Below, one piece after another: positions 370 through 6,290 of a DNA stretch of 6,290 nt. The notes below the pieces were generated by a model. That model did no database searches, was not told the DNA's origin, and was given only the letters and a program-made list of their open reading frames with translations. Numbering within the stretch: the first letter of the stretch is position 1; each line of letters begins with the position of its first letter. Origin of the DNA: Pseudomonadota bacterium (GTDB lineage: Bacteria > Myxococcota > UBA9042 > PHBI01); assembly GCA_005772945.1 (NCBI GenBank), contig SXIE01000156.1:1-6290 (forward strand), written 5' to 3'. Made by a program: the position numbers and the translations under genes.

Positions 370-1659
370 TCAGAACTGAATCGTCCGGTCGTACACCGAG
401 AGGGCCGAGAGATCCGGGCGGTTCGCATAGAAGTCGCGCCAGAGCCGCAGGTAGCCCGCCTCGACCTGCTCGGGCGTGAGCTGCGCCGGCCGGTAGACGC
501 AGGTCGTGTCATTGTAGTGGCGCCACTCGCGCGTGAGCAGGCGCCCTTCGGCCTCGATGCGATACCAGTCGGGCGTGCCCGGGTAGGGCGTCGCGACCGC
601 GAACTCGCACTTGCGGATCTTGCTCGTGTGGCAGAACTCGAGGATGCGATCGACCGTGCCTTCGTCGTCGTAGTCGGACCCGTAGAGGAACGACGCGTAC
701 GGCTCGATGCCCGCGTCCCACGACTTCGCGACGGCCTCGAGGGCGCGCGTGTAGGCGCGGTCGTCCTGGCCGGTCCAGGCGCGCATCGTGATCGGATCGA
801 AGCCCGTCACCAGATAGAACATGTCGACGCCGGCCTCTTTCGCGAGCGTCAGCGTGGCCGCCGGCGTGCTGCGGATCATCGTCATCGAGGTGCCGACGTA
901 GCTGACCGAGGCTCGCTCGCCGCGGTCGACGAGCGTCTGTAGGAAGGTCTTGAGGAGCTCGCGCGGTGCGCCCGGAAGCCAGCTCGTGTCCTCGGTGAGG
1001 CAGGCGCGCTTGCCGGCCTTCGAGAGGTTCGCGAGCTGCCCGAGCACGTGATCGAGCGTATGCGTACGACACGCGCCGCCCATCGAGGTCGGCAGGATGC
1101 ACGCGCGACAGGCGAGTGGACAGCCACGCGAGAGCTGCAGCGGGTAGTCGTCGGGATGGAAGCTCGGGCCTTCCTGCGTGAAGTAGAGATCGACGCGCGG
1201 CAGCGGCAGCCCGACCAGATCGCACGGCGCGGCCGTGTAGCGCGGCGCGAGGCACCCGGCGCGGAAGTCATCGAGGAGGCGCGGCCACACCGGCTCACCC
1301 TCGCCGACCACGACCGCATCGACGTGCGGCTGCACGACGTCGGGCATCGCGGTCGGAAAGATCCCGCCAGCCACGACGGTCTTGCCTTGCGCGCGGAACC
1401 AGTCCGCGAGCTGCAGCGCGCGCGTCGCGGCCGGCGTGAAGAACGAGAGCGCGACGATATCGGCGTCGGTCTCGTAGTCCGCTGGCGCGAGGCGATCGTC
1501 GCGCATCTCGAGCTCCCAGTCGTCGGGCGTCATGGCCGCGACGGAGGCGATCCCGAGCGAGGGCGATCCGAGATATTCGTTCATCGGCACGTACGTCCGG
1601 AGCTCCGGATGGACGTCGGCGTGGCGCTGGAAGCCTGGGTACACAAAGAGGATTTTCAC
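370..1659 (-). CDS. Class B (cobalamin-binding type) radical SAM enzyme, lipid-modifying type
   Basis: This 429-residue protein has the B12-radical SAM architecture. An N-terminal Rossmann-like domain (about 1-135) begins MKILFVYPGF and ends with the VVVGEGE turn (117-122). A radical SAM barrel (about 172-360) carries the cluster motif C180-x3-C184-x2-C187 in SRGCPLACRAC, which ligates a [4Fe-4S] cluster for reductive SAM cleavage. The C-terminal part (TPYPGTPDW at 357-365, then WRHYND and a YxxLWRDFY-type helix) matches the DUF4070-like tail of HpnP/HpnJ, GrsA and related lipid enzymes. The canonical DxHxxG cobalamin motif is absent; only D15-x-H17 is seen. Such enzymes methylate or couple unactivated sp3 carbons, so an ACP-bound acyl chain is a plausible substrate (inference). 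The GTG start is chosen because it gives the family N-terminus, has GGAG 7 nt upstream (1667-1670) and overlaps the ACAD stop as GTGA. It is the last gene of the operon. The specific reaction is unknown. Confidence 0.88.
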   Translation of the reverse strand: MKILFVYPGFQRHADVHPELRTYVPMNEYLGSPSLGIASVAAMTPDDWELEMRDDRLAPADYETDADIVALSFFTPAATRALQLADWFRAQGKTVVAGGIFPTAMPDVVQPHVDAVVVGEGEPVWPRLLDDFRAGCLAPRYTAAPCDLVGLPLPRVDLYFTQEGPSFHPDDYPLQLSRGCPLACRACILPTSMGGACRTHTLDHVLGQLANLSKAGKRACLTEDTSWLPGAPRELLKTFLQTLVDRGERASVSYVGTSMTMIRSTPAATLTLAKEAGVDMFYLVTGFDPITMRAWTGQDDRAYTRALEAVAKSWDAGIEPYASFLYGSDYDDEGTVDRILEFCHTSKIRKCEFAVATPYPGTPDWYRIEAEGRLLTREWRHYNDTTCVYRPAQLTPEQVEAGYLRLWRDFYANRPDLSALSVYDRTIQF

Positions 1660-3125
1660 GCGTCGACTCCGTCGAGAAGCAGGTGGGCGATGGGGGTGGT
1701 GCCATGAAAGTCGACCGGTTCGAGCGCGATCGCGTCCGCCGCGCGCGCGAGGAGCTCGAGCGCGTGAGCGGCGAGCGCCGCGTCGAGCGGGTCGCACGTC
1801 GCGGCGGTTTCGGTCTGATGAAGAACCGCGTCGGCCGCCTCGCGCAGCATCACGAGGCGTCCGAGGTGGTGAAGGGCTTTCGCGTTGCGGAGCGCGGCGA
1901 GACCGCTGCGAGCGTGGAGACCCTGGCAGGCCTCGGTGACCCGACGCCAGGTCGGTCCGTGCGAATTCTCCGCCGTCACCGCGCGCGGCGCGACCAGCTC
2001 CAGGAGGCCGAGGCGCCCGAGGAGGACGTCGTTGGCGCCCTCGAAAATGCGGGTGATGCGCGCGTCGCGCATGAGCAGCGGGATGCCGCTTTCCTCGATA
2101 TAGCCGCTGCCGCCGTGAAGCTGCAGCGCCATGTCGCAGATGCGCCAGTCCGCGTCGCTGGCGTAGACCTTCGCAGCGAGCGAGCGGCGCTCGAGGTCGC
2201 TCGGATCGGCCGCAGTAAGGGCGATGAGCGCCCGCATCGTGTAGAGCTCGGCCGCCATATGAGCGACCTGCGCGCGGACGACGGCGTTCTGTCCGAGTGG
2301 CTTGCCGAACTGCTGACGATTGCGCACGTGTGCAAGCGTCTTGTCGAGCGCCGCGCGCGCGGTCCCGGCGCAACCCGACGCCATGATGGTGCGGCCCCAC
2401 GCCAAGATGTGCCCGAGCAGGCGACTCCCACTCCCGGGCTCGCCCACGATGCGGCTGAGCGGCACGCTCGTATCGACGTAGATCGGGGTCGTCGACGAGC
2501 CGCGCAGTCCGAGTTTCTCTTCCTCGCGGCCGATGTCGACGCCGCCGTCCTCGCGCCGCAGCATGACGAGGCTCTGGCCAGCGGCCCCGCCCAGACCCGG
2601 GCTCGACGTGGTCAGCGTGTAGATGCCGGCCAGTCCGCCGTTGGTGACGAAGGCCTTCTGCCCGACGACGCGCAGGCGTCCGTTCGCCTCGAGCGTCGCG
2701 GTCGTCGCCAGGCGCGAGAGGTCGCTGCCCGCCCCCGGCTCGGTCGTCGCGAACGCGGCGATGGTCTTGCCGGACGCGAGACCGGGCAGGAACTCGGCGT
2801 GCTGCGCGTCGCTCCCGAAGGCGACGAGGCCGCGTGTGCCCAACCCCAAATGGAGGCCGATGGTGGTCGCGACCGAGCGGTCCACGCGCGCGACCGCCTC
2901 GACCACCGCGGTCGCGCCGGGCAGGCCGAGGCCGCATCCGCCGTGCTCGATCGGCAAGGACACGCCGAAGACGCCGAGCTCCCCGAGGCCGCCGAGGACC
3001 TCGGCCGGAATGGCGTGCGCGCGATCGATCCGCGCGGCGTCGACGTGGCTTCCGAGGAAGCGCTCGAGCGAGCGGACGAAGTCGCGAATCGTGGCGGCGT
3101 CCGTGGCAGCGTGCGCGGCGATCAT
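1656..3125 (-). CDS. Acyl-CoA (probably acyl-ACP) dehydrogenase, VLCAD-like length
   Basis: This 489-residue flavoprotein should catalyse alpha,beta-dehydrogenation of an acyl thioester using FAD. The N-terminal helical domain is about 8-120. The FAD/substrate segment FATTEPGAGSD is at 125-135 and the beta-domain element LGLRGSSTTPIYVD at 205-218. RNRQQFGKPL (268-277) is the family FAD-pyrophosphate signature, LQLHGGSGYIEESG is at 335-348, and the catalytic base is Glu362 in RIFEGAND. Core motifs are intact, so it should be active. It has about 110 residues beyond the usual ACAD core, resembling VLCAD/ACAD9, which use the tail for membrane association. The ATG overlaps the ACP stop (ATGA) and no good ribosome site is visible, so translation is probably coupled. 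Sitting next to an ACP and a FAAL-like gene, it parallels MbtN (FadE14), which desaturates an ACP-bound fatty acid; the ACP-tethered substrate is therefore inferred, not shown. An ordinary beta-oxidation enzyme is the alternative. Confidence 0.9.
   Translation of the reverse strand: MIAAHAATDAATIRDFVRSLERFLGSHVDAARIDRAHAIPAEVLGGLGELGVFGVSLPIEHGGCGLGLPGATAVVEAVARVDRSVATTIGLHLGLGTRGLVAFGSDAQHAEFLPGLASGKTIAAFATTEPGAGSDLSRLATTATLEANGRLRVVGQKAFVTNGGLAGIYTLTTSSPGLGGAAGQSLVMLRREDGGVDIGREEEKLGLRGSSTTPIYVDTSVPLSRIVGEPGSGSRLLGHILAWGRTIMASGCAGTARAALDKTLAHVRNRQQFGKPLGQNAVVRAQVAHMAAELYTMRALIALTAADPSDLERRSLAAKVYASDADWRICDMALQLHGGSGYIEESGIPLLMRDARITRIFEGANDVLLGRLGLLELVAPRAVTAENSHGPTWRRVTEACQGLHARSGLAALRNAKALHHLGRLVMLREAADAVLHQTETAATCDPLDAALAAHALELLARAADAIALEPVDFHGTTPIAHLLLDGVDA
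1667..1670 (-). promoter_or_regulatory. Ribosome-binding site supporting the GTG start of the radical SAM gene
   Basis: GGAG on the minus strand, 7 nt before the GTG at 1659-1657. It favours this non-ATG start over the in-frame ATG at codon 26, which would remove the first strand of the cobalamin-binding domain. Confidence 0.55.
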
Positions 3126-3379
3126 GTGGAGAGGCCGCTGGATTTCGCGAGGCGCGCCTCGGCGAGGGCCACGATCTTACCGATGGTATTGAGGCCTGCG
3201 ACGTCCTCCATCTCGAGCGCGAGGCCGAGCTCGTCGTCGATGAGCGACACGAGCTCCATCGCGGCGACCGAGTCGAGCGCGAGGTCCTCGCGCAGGCGGG
3301 ACGCAGGCGTGATCTCGACTTTGGAGACTGGCGTGACCTGCTTGACGAGGGTGCAGATGCTGGCGAAGACAGAGCTCAT
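3122..3379 (-). CDS. Acyl carrier protein
   Basis: This 85-residue protein has the size and four-helix layout of a free-standing type II ACP. The phosphopantetheine site is Ser37 in DLALDSVAAMEL, at the start of helix II, matching the family D-S-L/V motif. Acidic residues follow in helix II (SLIDDELGLALEMED), the usual docking surface for partner enzymes. It should be primed by a 4'-phosphopantetheinyl transferase (none in the window) and carry an acyl chain as a thioester. The ATG overlaps the upstream SDR stop (ATGA) and has GGAG 5 nt upstream (3385-3388); its own stop overlaps the ACAD start (ATGA). Placement between an SDR and an ACAD, downstream of a FAAL-like gene, points to a dedicated carrier for this pathway rather than the housekeeping fatty-acid ACP, comparable to MbtL. 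DSV instead of the DSL typical of AcpP agrees with a specialised ACP but is weak evidence. Confidence 0.92.
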   Translation of the reverse strand: MSSVFASICTLVKQVTPVSKVEITPASRLREDLALDSVAAMELVSLIDDELGLALEMEDVAGLNTIGKIVALAEARLAKSSGLST

Positions 3380-4389
3380 GGGGACTCCAACGGGATGACG
3401 GCCTCGGTTCGGGCCGGGATGATGCGCATGCGCGCCGCCCACGTATCGAAGGCGGCGAGGGTCTCGGAGAACGGTGTCCACTGGATGCCGAGCGTCGCGG
3501 TCGCGAGCGCGGCGTCGACGGGGACGCCATGGATGACGAGATCGACGATCTCGCGGGCGATGGCCGCGCGTTCGGGCGTGCCCGCGACCCGCGCTTCTTC
3601 GGCGTCGGCGAGTGCGCAGGCCGCCGCCGGCGTGAGTGGGGCCGACGGGAGCGCGACGCCGTAGTGGTGCGCGAGCTCGGTGAGCAGCGTCTGCAGGCGC
3701 GTCGTCCGCCCCGCGAGGAGCACGCGGCGCGGCGGATTCGGGTGCGTCGTCAGCGCGAGGAGCGCGCGCCCGACATCGCGCGCATCGACCAGCGCGACGG
3801 TGCCATCGGGGTGGGGCGGGCAGCGATCGTGGGCCATGCCGACGAGCAGCGCGGACGTCCCGACCTTCAAATCCCACGGCCCGATGCATGCGCCCGGACA
3901 CGCGACGAGGACCTCGAAGCGGCGCTCGGCGAGGACGCATTGCTCCATCGCCCATTTCAGATCGTGGTAGGTGCCGAAGCCGGGCGCGCGCGGGTAGACG
4001 TCGGCCTCGGTCGAGGGCGAACCGTCCGCGCGCGGGGCGACGGTGGCGGTGCTGGAGACGTAGATGAAGCGCTTGACGCCGGCCGCGGCGGCCGCGTCGA
4101 GCAGCGTCTGCGTTTGCTTGCAGCCGCGTGCAAGGGTTTCCTCGGGCGTGCGCGAGTCGCGAGGGTAGTGCCCGGCGAGATGCACGCAGACCTCGTTGCC
4201 GGCGAGCGCGGGAATCAGGCTCGCCGCATCCTCGAGATCGATCGCGACGCGCTCGACGCCCCGCCGTTTGAGCGGGATGAGATTGCCCCGCGGCCGATGC
4301 AGGCAGCGAGGGGAAACACCCGCCGCCACCATGACATCGATCAGGTTCAGACCGAGAAAACCGCTTGCGCCGAGGATGGTCACGCCCAC
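3376..4389 (-). CDS. Extended SDR: NAD(P)-dependent epimerase/dehydratase/reductase
   Basis: The 337-residue protein begins with a Rossmann nucleotide-binding motif G7-A-S-G10-F-L-G13 (GxxGxxG, typical of extended SDRs). A catalytic Ser/Thr segment YVSSTATV is at 110-117 and the Y141-x3-K145 pair is in YHDLKWAME. Arginines after the second beta strand (HRPRG, 31-35) favour NADP(H), by inference. The overall pattern resembles the HpnA/dihydroflavonol-reductase/3-beta-hydroxysteroid dehydrogenase branch, whose members reduce ketones or epimerise, so substrate cannot be assigned. A role reducing a keto group on the acyl or condensed product is a guess. The GTG at 4389 lacks a clear Shine-Dalgarno site; GTG at 4383 (two codons later) would give the more typical MTILGASGFLG. 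An in-frame stop at 4437-4435 rules out a much longer form. It is the first gene after the 56-bp gap with the Fnr-like box, and its stop overlaps the ACP start. Confidence 0.85.
   Translation of the reverse strand: MGVTILGASGFLGLNLIDVMVAAGVSPRCLHRPRGNLIPLKRRGVERVAIDLEDAASLIPALAGNEVCVHLAGHYPRDSRTPEETLARGCKQTQTLLDAAAAAGVKRFIYVSSTATVAPRADGSPSTEADVYPRAPGFGTYHDLKWAMEQCVLAERRFEVLVACPGACIGPWDLKVGTSALLVGMAHDRCPPHPDGTVALVDARDVGRALLALTTHPNPPRRVLLAGRTTRLQTLLTELAHHYGVALPSAPLTPAAACALADAEEARVAGTPERAAIAREIVDLVIHGVPVDAALATATLGIQWTPFSETLAAFDTWAARMRIIPARTEAVIPLESP
3385..3388 (-). promoter_or_regulatory. Ribosome-binding site of the ACP gene
   Basis: GGAG on the minus strand, 5 nt before the ACP ATG and inside the end of the SDR gene. 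With the ATGA overlap it allows independent re-initiation, which suits an ACP needed in higher amounts than the enzymes. The next gene (ACAD) has no comparable site. Confidence 0.55.
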
Positions 4390-4396
4390 GCGCGGG

Positions 4397-4402
4397 ACCG
4401 TA
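4397..4402 (-). promoter_or_regulatory. Possible -10 element upstream of the SDR gene
   Basis: The minus strand reads TACGGT here, matching TATAAT at the three most conserved positions (T1, A2, T6). It lies where a class II Fnr-activated promoter would need it if the box at 4425-4438 is centred near -41.5. That spacing would put the transcript start around 4390, at or next to the GTG start codon. This is a fit to expectation rather than an independent recognition. Confidence 0.25.
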
Positions 4403-4424
4403 TCGGAGCGACCGAGCGCAGACC

Positions 4425-4438
4425 TTGCGCAAGATCAA
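4425..4438 (-). promoter_or_regulatory. Candidate Fnr box in the only true intra-operon gap
   Basis: The minus strand reads TTGATCTTGCGCAA. The Fnr consensus is TTGAT-N4-ATCAA; the left half-site is perfect and the right is CGCAA (3 of 5), giving 8 of 10. It sits 8 bp after the regulator's stop codon and about 35 bp before the SDR start. The regulator immediately upstream has the E-x-x-S-R recognition helix that reads this sequence in Fnr. A competing, more symmetric dyad overlaps it: CTTGCGCAAG at 4424-4433, extendable to GACCTTGCGCAAGATC with one mismatched pair, so another regulator or a short hairpin is possible. Confidence 0.5.
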
Positions 4439-4445
4439 TGTGCGG

Positions 4446-5105
4446 TCACATTCCGGTCAAAAGCCGCATGCGCCGGCCTTCGACCTCGATGACGCCCGCG
4501 CGATGAAGCTCCTGAACCTGACGCGACACAGTCTCGAGCGTCAGCCCGAGCGCCTCGGCCATGTCCTCGCGCGTCGCCGGCAGCTGCCCCCACGTGCCCG
4601 TCGGGATCGGTCCGAGCAGCTCGGCGACCATCGCCAGGACGCGCTCGCGAGCGCTGCGCGTGCTCCGCACGATACGGACCCGCAGGGCCTCCATGTCGTC
4701 CGTGAGCGCGCGCGTGAACGCCATGCCGAGCGCAGGTCGCTCCGCGATCGCGTCCATGACCTGCCCGACCGGCACGCGGCAGACGCGCGAGGCCTGAAGC
4801 GCATCGAGCGTCGTGCGCTGCTCGCCGCTGGTCATCGACTCGCTCCCGAGCACCTGCCCAGGTCCGACGAAGCGCGTCGTCGTGCGCCGCCCCTCGTCGT
4901 CCATGATCGACTCGCGCATCCATCCTTCGACGACCGCGAAGATGTGCTGCGCGGGCTCGCCAGCGCGCGCCAGGATGTCGCCGCGAACGAGCGTGACCTG
5001 CCCGGCGGGCGGTCGCCCGGTGCACGAGTAGCACACCGCGCGCAGCGTCAGACCCCGGGCCACCAGCGGACAGCGCGTCGGATGGTTGCAGTTCGAAGCA
5101 ATCAT
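4446..5105 (-). CDS. Crp/Fnr-family transcriptional regulator, probable redox (Fe-S) sensor
   Basis: The 219-residue protein has a cysteine-bearing N-terminus (C6, C12, C25, C28), a cyclic-nucleotide-fold beta barrel (about 33-105, with RGDILARAGE and FVGPGQVLGSE), a dimerisation helix (about 125-152) and a winged HTH (about 155-215). C109 in ASRVCRVP aligns with Fnr C122 (MVCEIPF), the fourth cluster ligand in E. coli Fnr. The recognition helix TLETVSR has E191-x2-S194-R195, the same spacing as the E209/S212/R213 reading residues of Fnr. The Fnr cAMP-independent fold is supported by lack of the CRP cAMP pocket signature. It is therefore predicted to sense oxygen, NO or redox state through an Fe-S cluster and bind Fnr-like sites, including the one just downstream. 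Cysteine spacing differs from canonical Fnr. The ATG at 5105 is preferred because it forms an ATGA overlap with the ligase stop and has GGAG 8 nt upstream; it is co-transcribed with the ligase. Confidence 0.87.
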   Translation of the reverse strand: MIASNCNHPTRCPLVARGLTLRAVCYSCTGRPPAGQVTLVRGDILARAGEPAQHIFAVVEGWMRESIMDDEGRRTTTRFVGPGQVLGSESMTSGEQRTTLDALQASRVCRVPVGQVMDAIAERPALGMAFTRALTDDMEALRVRIVRSTRSARERVLAMVAELLGPIPTGTWGQLPATREDMAEALGLTLETVSRQVQELHRAGVIEVEGRRMRLLTGM

Positions 5106-6290
5106 GGGGTGGTCTCCATGGCAAGACGACGGCACGCGGTCCGATCAAGCGCCGATCCGACACGCGGGAGCGACCCAGGTCCGACGACGCACACGCGCGC
5201 GCCGCCGAGCCCGAGACGGTTCAGGATCTCGCCGACGATGGTCTGGGCGAGCGCACCTTCGGCCGCGGTGTCGCCGACGAGGGCGCTCTCGGCCAGGATC
5301 ATCAAGCCTTCGGTGCCCTCGCGCGCATCCGGGATCGCGGTCGCGAAGACGGACCGCACCGAGGCCTCGCGCGTCACGAGCGACTCGACGTCGTCGATGT
5401 AGAAGTTCTTGCCGCGCCGGATCACCATCTCCTTGCGGCGCCCGAGGACGACGATCTCGCCGTCGTGGAACGCGCCCAGATCGCCCGTGTGCAGCCAGCC
5501 GTCGGCGTCGAGAATGCGCGCGGTCGCCTCGGGCGCGTCGAGGTAGCCGTCCATGACGGACGGTCCGCGCACGAGGATCTCGCCGTCGCGCAAGCACACG
5601 TCGTGGCCCGGAAACGGGCGTCCGCAGGCGACACCACCGGGGCCCACTCGGAGCGCGCGCCCAGGCGGGGTCACGCTGACGGCGAGGACGTGCTCGGCCA
5701 GTCCGTAGGCGGCCGTGAAGGCCTCGGCGCGAAAGCCACACGCGGCGAAGCGCGCCGCAAACGCGTGGCACGTGTCGGCCTGGACCGTCTCCGATCCAGT
5801 CAGCGCGACGCGCAGACGCGAGAGATCGAGCCGCGCCAGATCGGCCTCGCGCACGCGCCGGGCACACATCTGCCAGGCGAAGTTCGGACCCGCCGTGAGC
5901 GTGGCGCCGCGCGCCCCGAGCGCCTCGAGCCACCGCACGGGCTGGACGAGCACCGCCTCCGCCTTCATGAGATCGACCGGGTAGCCCCACCAGAGGGCCA
6001 TCATCAGGCCGCCGACCAAGCCCATGTCGTGGCTCATCGGCGACCACGAGAGCGCGCGATCGGTGGGGCCGACGCCCAGTGCGCGCCCGAGCGCTTCGAT
6101 GTTGGCCGCGAGGGCCCCATGCGAGAGCATGATGCCGCGCGGCGCGAGCTGCGGGCTTGAGCCGTATTGGACGAACGCGAGGTCGCTCGGGAGCGGGCGC
6201 AGGCCGGCCCCGAGGTCGGTCGGCTCAGCAGTGGCGTCCGTTGCGTCGGGCGCGACGCGTGCGACCAGATCGAGCCGCGGCGTCGTGCGC
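5102..6290 (-). CDS. Fatty acyl-AMP ligase-like (FAAL) protein, 5' end outside window
   Basis: 395 residues are visible, open to the window edge; full FAALs are about 580 residues, so roughly the first third is missing. FAAL signatures in order: LSWSPMSHDMGLVGG (A4-like, around residues 81-95 of the visible part), AGPNFAWQMC (the FAAL GPNFAYDLC element), AYGLAEHVLAVS (A5), VACGRPFPG, GYLDAPEATA, DGWLHTGDLG (A7) and GRRKEMVIRRGKNFY (A8 hinge). Canonical FAALs adenylate a fatty acid with ATP and pass it to an ACP phosphopantetheine; the ACP in this operon is the natural partner. Two catalytic elements are odd: the A3 ATP loop reads FVQYGSSPQLAPRG instead of QYTSGST-type, and A10 reads LPRVGSALDR, lacking the catalytic lysine. 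It may be impaired in adenylation or act only as an acyl binder/transferase. Its TGA overlaps the regulator ATG. More operon genes may lie upstream. Confidence 0.85.
   Translation of the reverse strand, partial: RTTPRLDLVARVAPDATDATAEPTDLGAGLRPLPSDLAFVQYGSSPQLAPRGIMLSHGALAANIEALGRALGVGPTDRALSWSPMSHDMGLVGGLMMALWWGYPVDLMKAEAVLVQPVRWLEALGARGATLTAGPNFAWQMCARRVREADLARLDLSRLRVALTGSETVQADTCHAFAARFAACGFRAEAFTAAYGLAEHVLAVSVTPPGRALRVGPGGVACGRPFPGHDVCLRDGEILVRGPSVMDGYLDAPEATARILDADGWLHTGDLGAFHDGEIVVLGRRKEMVIRRGKNFYIDDVESLVTREASVRSVFATAIPDAREGTEGLMILAESALVGDTAAEGALAQTIVGEILNRLGLGGARVCVVGPGSLPRVGSALDRTACRRLAMETTP
5114..5117 (-). promoter_or_regulatory. Ribosome-binding site that fixes the regulator start
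   Basis: GGAG on the minus strand, 8 nt before the ATG at 5105-5103 and inside the last codons of the ligase gene. It supports the 219-residue start over an in-frame ATG 30 nt further upstream (5135), which lacks a comparable site and would add a non-conserved ten-residue extension. Confidence 0.6.

Follow-up and report, generated by a model that had tools for sequence, protein, structure and literature searches.

A conserved five-gene block for candidate acyl-ACP remodelling in uncultured Myxococcota and a neighbouring phylum

The stretch of DNA analysed here (the window: 6,290 nucleotides of contig SXIE01000156.1, assembly GCA_005772945.1, assigned to the Myxococcota by GTDB) carries six tightly packed genes, encoding a protein like the fatty acyl-AMP ligases (FAAL), a Crp/Fnr-family regulator, a short-chain dehydrogenase/reductase (SDR), an acyl carrier protein (ACP), a flavoprotein of the acyl-CoA dehydrogenase family (ACAD) and a radical S-adenosylmethionine (SAM) enzyme. 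The question raised by this locus is whether these genes form a unit and which chemistry such a unit could carry out. The original prediction, made from the sequence of the window, proposed that an acyl chain is loaded on the carrier, desaturated and then modified by radical chemistry, under local oxygen control. Five of the genes are a conserved unit kept together across many genomes. It is probable, although far from certain, that this unit works as an operon for acyl-ACP remodelling in uncultured Myxococcota and a neighbouring phylum, combining enoyl formation, a radical SAM step and reduction by the SDR, with an FNR-like switch in a subset of loci.

The five-gene block and its conservation

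When species genomes were scanned with a 36-row radical SAM alignment, 32 loci came up, each of them in a metagenome-assembled genome titled as Myxococcota or a member of it, or as a delta- or other proteobacterium; with two phylum searches added, 53 non-duplicate loci were examined, some of them close kin. Blocks were counted in those 38 orthologous loci whose upstream sequence extends over 4.6 kb or more (37 from a script filter, plus L120 added by hand as a miss); they include close relatives and are not 38 independent cases. All five genes (FAAL-like, SDR, ACP, ACAD and radical SAM) occur in 31 of the 38; the counts for single genes are 37 for ACP and for ACAD, 35 for FAAL and 32 for SDR. 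The incomplete blocks lack FAAL (L030), FAAL and SDR (L069) or SDR (L070, L073, L075 and L076), and at L120 none of the partner genes is found. Because the five genes recur together in this way, chance clustering in the window is ruled out, and the idea of an ACP-tethered acyl-modifying unit is borne out as a block that travels together. The claim that six genes do so stands for five of them, whereas the Fnr-like regulator is lineage-specific: a six-gene unit is ruled out, with a Crp gene near the block in 6/37 loci (in one case sharing its strand) and a LuxR gene near it in 9/37.

Two gene orders were distinguished. Type I, which includes the branch of the window, is FAAL-SDR-ACP-ACAD-radical SAM, and type II is FAAL-(SDR)-ACP-radical SAM-ACAD; the block is retained despite this rearrangement. 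The radical SAM tree unites the 11 type II rows in a single group (support 100/100) and places the window within a type I group of 42 rows (100/99). Within type II, L128, which has the SDR, is the earliest branch, followed by two clades of five, one carrying the SDR and the other lacking it.

Of the 195 genomes of one phylum, 26 contain orthologues of this enzyme, at 27 places (two in G158) and with at least 49% identity; G072 additionally holds a fragment, and the next relatives, fragments aside, reach at most 36%. Among the 282 sampled genomes of the second phylum, 23 carry orthologues with at least 51% identity (three partial), besides a graded series of remoter relatives. No plasmid carriage was seen, all 39 matching records being below 60% identity and the best ten rows at 25-29%. 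Arrays of radical SAM paralogues with 31-36% identity to the window enzyme were also observed, three genes in G004:C195:8267-12169 and five in G057:C2:6605-19528.

Several other genes occur near the blocks. In L009 (11300-12508), L003, L008, L019, L022, L024, L026 and L027 the block is followed by a second radical SAM gene; the L009 copy matches NirJ2 best, at 65 bits, and then the tetraether lipid synthase Tes, at 61 bits, without reaching the cut-offs, and its nearest solved chain is 7tol (E 6.9e-8). An FAD-dependent (DAO) oxidase gene follows the block in L015 (11307-12416), L003, L004, L007 and L011, and a gene like tryptophanase or tyrosine phenol-lyase lies nearby in L017, L027 and L029. 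A FabF-like ketosynthase gene adjoins the block on the opposite strand at L126:3542-4765, and L133:8653-13407 holds another one beside a radical SAM relative of 38% identity, followed by a second large open reading frame (ORF).

All six genes placed in the window by the original prediction are present on one strand with operon-like overlaps (Table 1), and transcription would run from 6290 to 370 in the order FAAL-like, Crp/Fnr, SDR, ACP, ACAD, radical SAM. Neighbouring genes share 4 bases at the SDR/ACP, ACP/ACAD and ACAD/radical SAM junctions. The regulator probably starts at a coupled ATG at 5105; with this start, the FAAL stop and the ATG overlap as ATGA, which brings the 4-base overlaps to four. 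The sole intergenic gap (56 bp) separates regulator and SDR. Neither a terminator nor a promoter was found in positions 1-420. Pfam gave the expected domains in all six genes, above the curated cut-offs in every case but Radical_SAM (24.1 bits, cut-off 29.5).

Table 1. Features of the window with their coordinates
Feature	Coordinates	Strand	Basis
FAAL-like (probable pseudo-FAAL) gene, 3' 395 codons, 5' end beyond the window	5102..6290	-	AMP-binding PF00501, 108 bits
Crp/Fnr-family regulator	4446..5135	-	cNMP_binding and HTH_Crp_2
FNR-box-like palindrome TTGATCTTGCGCAA, 8/10, between regulator and SDR	4425..4438	-	Consensus match
Extended SDR, reductase type, predicted NADP(H) cofactor	3376..4389	-	Epimerase PF01370, 67.6 bits
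Acyl carrier protein, 85 aa	3122..3379	-	PP-binding PF00550, 47.4 bits
ACAD-family flavoprotein acting on an acyl thioester (putatively acyl-ACP)	1656..3125	-	Acyl-CoA_dh N/M/C
Radical SAM enzyme, N-terminal B12-fold domain, AprD4/MgmA-like, GTG start	370..1659	-	B12-binding PF02310

The enzymes of the block

The catalytic residues of ACP, ACAD, SDR and radical SAM enzyme are conserved in the orthologue alignments. In the radical SAM enzyme the CxxxCxxC motif is invariant (36/36 rows) and the B12-binding domain PF02310 scores 41.9 bits in the window copy against a cut-off of 32.1. This enzyme had been taken for a B12-dependent lipid enzyme of the DUF4070 type, an identity that was not borne out: HpnJ (27.7 bits, cut-off 577.6), HpnR (25.2, cut-off 650) and the ladderane B12-radical SAM enzyme (31.1, cut-off 360) are far from matched, whereas AprD4 is the nearest relative by sequence profile and by fold, and MgmA the second by both. 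The enzyme is thus nearest to AprD4, a radical diol dehydratase with an NADPH reductase as partner, a likeness of sequence and fold that does not imply function. AprD4 is not known to need cobalamin. B12 chemistry by the block enzyme is not supported by these comparisons, AprD4 being nearer and the equivalog cut-offs far from reached. In the loop after strand 3, F73, F74 and T75 are invariant and stand at the place of the residue found under the cobalt in OxsB, TsrM and TokK, as the available parts of the published descriptions give it.

The flavoprotein has all three ACAD domains. The original prediction regarded it as a counterpart of MbtN, which its score (65 bits, cut-off 700) contradicts; by sequence it is VLCAD-like, nearest to the very-long-chain acyl-CoA dehydrogenases (VLCAD), with VLCAD and ACAD9 as its nearest solved chains (223-228 bits). 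YxxxK, DxHxxG and the catalytic Glu of ACADs are well-established motifs. The Glu is present in all 49 ACAD rows (RIFEG in 48, QIFEG in one), the DS motif of the ACP in 45/45 aligned rows, and YxxxK in the 38 SDR rows that cover it. R32 of the SDR is invariant in 16/16 rows, the model of this protein is nearest to gox2253, PA4631 and cinnamoyl-CoA reductase, and its cofactor is predicted to be NADP(H).

The name FAAL-like is right as regards homology: the best NCBIfam match of the window copy is the fatty acyl-AMP ligase NF006624 (276.5 bits), and the nearest solved chains of the type I protein of L009 include the FAALs 3pbk and 7r7g. However, the window copy is devoid of two catalytic motifs. 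A3 and A10 are motifs with known roles in adenylating enzymes. The A3 P-loop of the window protein is QYGSSPQLAPRG, where others carry QYTSGSTGxPKG, and its A10 region is LPRVGSALDR instead of LPRTSSGKLRR, the catalytic lysine being absent, while motifs A5, A7 and A8 are retained. A near-identical full protein (P0121, 518 aa, encoded on a contig of 18,342 bases) has the altered P-loop QYGSGPQLxPRG, as do P0122 (516 aa, 85% identical to P0121) and P0123 (511 aa, 66%); P0124 carries QYTSGPVHTPRG. These four are the only ones among 120 listed homologues without the SGK of the A10 lysine. Decay into a pseudogene is ruled out by the full frames of P0121-P0123, and the window protein is probably a conserved pseudo-FAAL, which to judge from its motifs probably cannot adenylate. 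As the P-loop and the A10 lysine are lost, the acyl chain would have to be loaded in another way, and the claim that this FAAL loads it was not borne out.

The same two motifs are lost in L068, L071 and L077, which with the window makes 4 of 39 aligned rows (the row of L072 does not reach A10). Six type II genomes have the SDR: four hold a FAAL copy altered at both motifs (in G198 at another contig's end), G160 has a contig-end FAAL with altered P-loop and missing C-terminus, and that of G436 (L128) is intact. In the FAAL tree the altered copies, that of the window included, fall outside the type I FAAL clade, in conflict with the radical SAM tree. They group weakly (46/47 with the motif columns left out) and on long branches, and a single origin of the pseudo-FAALs was not borne out. 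At L072:4116-5717 the block is followed by a FAAL with intact P-loop, whose C-terminus is lost where the contig ends; the same genome holds a FAAL with altered P-loop at the end of another contig (L157). The FAAL-specific insertion is defined in the accessible part of PMC11837247.

The regulator and its candidate FNR boxes

The FNR box consensus and the cysteine positions of FNR are well known, the spacing in the E. coli protein being C-x2-C-x5-C. The window regulator has cysteines at positions 5, 16, 22, 35, 38 and 119 (counted in the ORF from 5135), and Cys119, in a VCRVP segment, is presumably the equivalent of E. coli FNR Cys122, a match made by eye. Clustered N-terminal cysteines with at least one later cysteine are shared by the regulators near L029, L005, L011, L015, L023, L025 and L032; compared with FNR by eye, the spacing is C-x12-C-x2-C in the window and L029 and C-x2-C-x7-C in the other six. 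In L011 and L015 the Crp/Fnr gene is close to a gene for an NnrS-like membrane protein (22.2 bits, cut-off 28), which precedes the block in L007, L011 and L015 (L015:4298-5596).

Perfect TTGAT-N4-ATCAA boxes occur four times in the 764,657 bases of 54 loci, versus 0.05 expected from Markov shuffles, and the four loci concerned (L001, L005, L025 and L032) all carry a Crp gene. The box of L001 lies at the regulator-SDR junction, matching the position of the window's 8/10 box, a match of a quality that 60 random bases would yield with a probability of about 0.003; in L025 and L032 it is just upstream of the FAAL, and in L005 on the far side of the regulator. L023 has a box of 9/10. A test for general control covered the 350 bp before the FAAL in 37 loci, a set apart from that of the block counts, with the FAAL on the strand of the radical SAM gene; boxes of at least 9/10 were found in 3/37, compared with 14/1630 background windows, and general FNR control of all blocks is ruled out. 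Since L011, L015 and L029 have no such box, and since blocks that lack a Crp gene are accompanied by LuxR-type genes or by neither kind, oxygen control appears local to a subset that includes the window. The proposal of local oxygen control gains support in that subset, most of whose loci combine the FNR-like regulator with boxes, and not for the blocks in general.

Candidate pathway, alternatives and known systems

In the favoured reading, the remodelling of an acyl chain on its carrier, a long chain would be held by the dedicated ACP; in most loci the FAAL would load it, and in the window, where the FAAL is without its ATP motifs, another ligase or acyltransferase. The VLCAD-like flavoprotein would give an alpha,beta-unsaturated chain. 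The radical SAM enzyme could then take a hydrogen from it and either remove or move a functional group, in the manner of AprD4, or add a carbon, in the manner of MgmA. The NADPH-type SDR would reduce the resulting carbonyl, or the thioester itself, as AprD3 does after AprD4; that the two proteins form a pair is stated in the available part of PMC5461906. In the type II side branch whose blocks lack the SDR, an adjacent alpha-oxoamine synthase could free the chain by condensation with an amino acid. When oxygen is low, the FNR-like protein may turn the block on, as would suit a radical SAM enzyme.

Several points weigh against this pathway. The order of the steps is one that we infer. The fold likeness to AprD4 shows no function; moreover, the substrate of AprD4 is an aminoglycoside diol, and no gene of the block makes a diol. 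The SDR also resembles many other extended SDRs. The block of L030 has no FAAL, and the orthologues at L120, L122 and L123 stand without a block, although L122 and L123 have short upstream flanks, and L120 and L123 are second copies, a block being present elsewhere in their genomes. Nine remoter relatives (L129-L137, 36-42% identity) are found in other settings, eight without any block gene and L137 with only a weak ACAD match on the opposite strand. As for the regulator, boxes of at least 9/10 are missing from three of the eight other loci with a Crp gene.

Among the alternatives, cobalamin-dependent C-methylation of the acyl chain, which would supply membrane or signal lipids with a branched fatty acid, is a tentative possibility. 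Against it stand AprD4 as nearest relative, the lack of a cobalamin riboswitch or any other Rfam match in the eight sources searched (weak evidence) and the lack of a His-on motif in the radical SAM sequence. The last point is tempered by class 1 enzymes, which bind cobalamin also without this His, as indicated in the part of PMC13331322 that is available.

It is rather unlikely, and still worth stating, that the block represents a new class of lipid or signal, made by dehydrating or rearranging an enoyl chain on its carrier by radical chemistry (AprD4 chemistry extended from sugars to fatty acids), with a conserved ATP-independent pseudo-FAAL of the window lineage that no longer activates the acyl chain but presents or transfers it on the ACP.

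Also considered, though improbable, is a variant sphingolipid pathway of the bacterial type, in which FAAL, SDR and ACP correspond to AasR, keto-reductase and AcpR and the chain passes to an enzyme like serine palmitoyltransferase (SPT). In E. coli BL21 the genes stand in just this order, FAAL-SDR-ACP-SPT, and according to the available part of PMC9386255 AasR loads AcpR for SPT. An SPT-like synthase follows the ACAD in 4/11 type II loci (L069, L073, L075 and L076), another is found at the start of a different contig of the L070 genome (G008), and G160, a type II genome with the SDR, has such a gene elsewhere (E 6.9e-86). On the other hand, no SPT-like synthase lies beside type I blocks or in the window, and the 16 type I genomes searched, which exclude those of the second phylum, gave weaker matches (4.7e-70 to 1.9e-60) than many other Myxococcota (about 1e-85). 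The SDR of E. coli matches that of the block weakly and in its N-terminal part (E 5.6e-6 to 9e-4, with seven genomes among the matches listed), the best match of AasR is another FAAL in 7/9 searched genomes with the block FAAL, and the blocks with an adjacent synthase have no SDR. The alpha-oxoamine synthase of the SDR-less type II clade is closest to SPT (NF047600, 395 bits, cut-off 640). Mutual exclusion of SDR and synthase was rejected as a rule: within contigs it holds in the 11 type II loci, but the five SDR-less loci form one clade, so that the swap amounts to one event.

It is very doubtful that the block is a module making starter units for lipopeptides or polyketides: FAAL, ACP and ACAD sets do serve lipopeptides, and FabF-like ketosynthases lie beside the L126 block and the remote relative in L133, but that of L126 is a single gene on the opposite strand, the flanking genes vary from locus to locus, and the large flanking ORFs tested are kinases or AAA, TPR, Ig-like, Kelch or RCC1 repeat proteins, most flanking ORFs not having been tested. 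In agreement with the original prediction, no nonribosomal peptide synthetase or modular polyketide synthase was detected among the 28 flanking ORFs compared with Pfam, the nearest thing being the L126 ketosynthase.

Returning to acyl-ACP remodelling, its interest is that the signature radical SAM enzyme is fairly common in uncultured Myxococcota and the neighbouring phylum, yet no described pathway with exactly this set was found by title or start of abstract, as had been supposed, in a search that did not cover bioRxiv and included few subscription texts. If correct, it would mean radical SAM chemistry on acyl-ACP under oxygen control, together with a conserved FAAL without its ATP motifs.

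The nearest known systems share parts of this arrangement. In mycobactin synthesis, MbtM, MbtL and MbtN follow the same logic of FAAL, ACP and ACAD, but the block proteins score 65 of 700 bits (MbtN) and 193.6 of 621 (MbtM, with the FAAL copy cut by the window end). The ceramide operon aasR-epi-acpR-spt of Caulobacter and E. coli BL21 has FAAL, extended SDR and ACP in the same order, carrying SPT where the block has ACAD and radical SAM; the ceramide SDR is not the nearest relative of the block SDR. HpnJ, HpnR and the ladderane enzyme belong to the same class of B12-domain radical SAM enzymes, with scores of 25-31 against cut-offs of 360-650 bits. MgmA, the methyl-coenzyme M reductase glutamine methylase (9ccb), is 20% identical to the radical SAM enzyme, and its substrate is, by title, a protein glutamine. 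AprD4/AprD3, which carries out the C3' deoxygenation of apramycin (PDB 6fd2; 17% identity over the aligned part), acts on a sugar without ACP, FAAL or ACAD.

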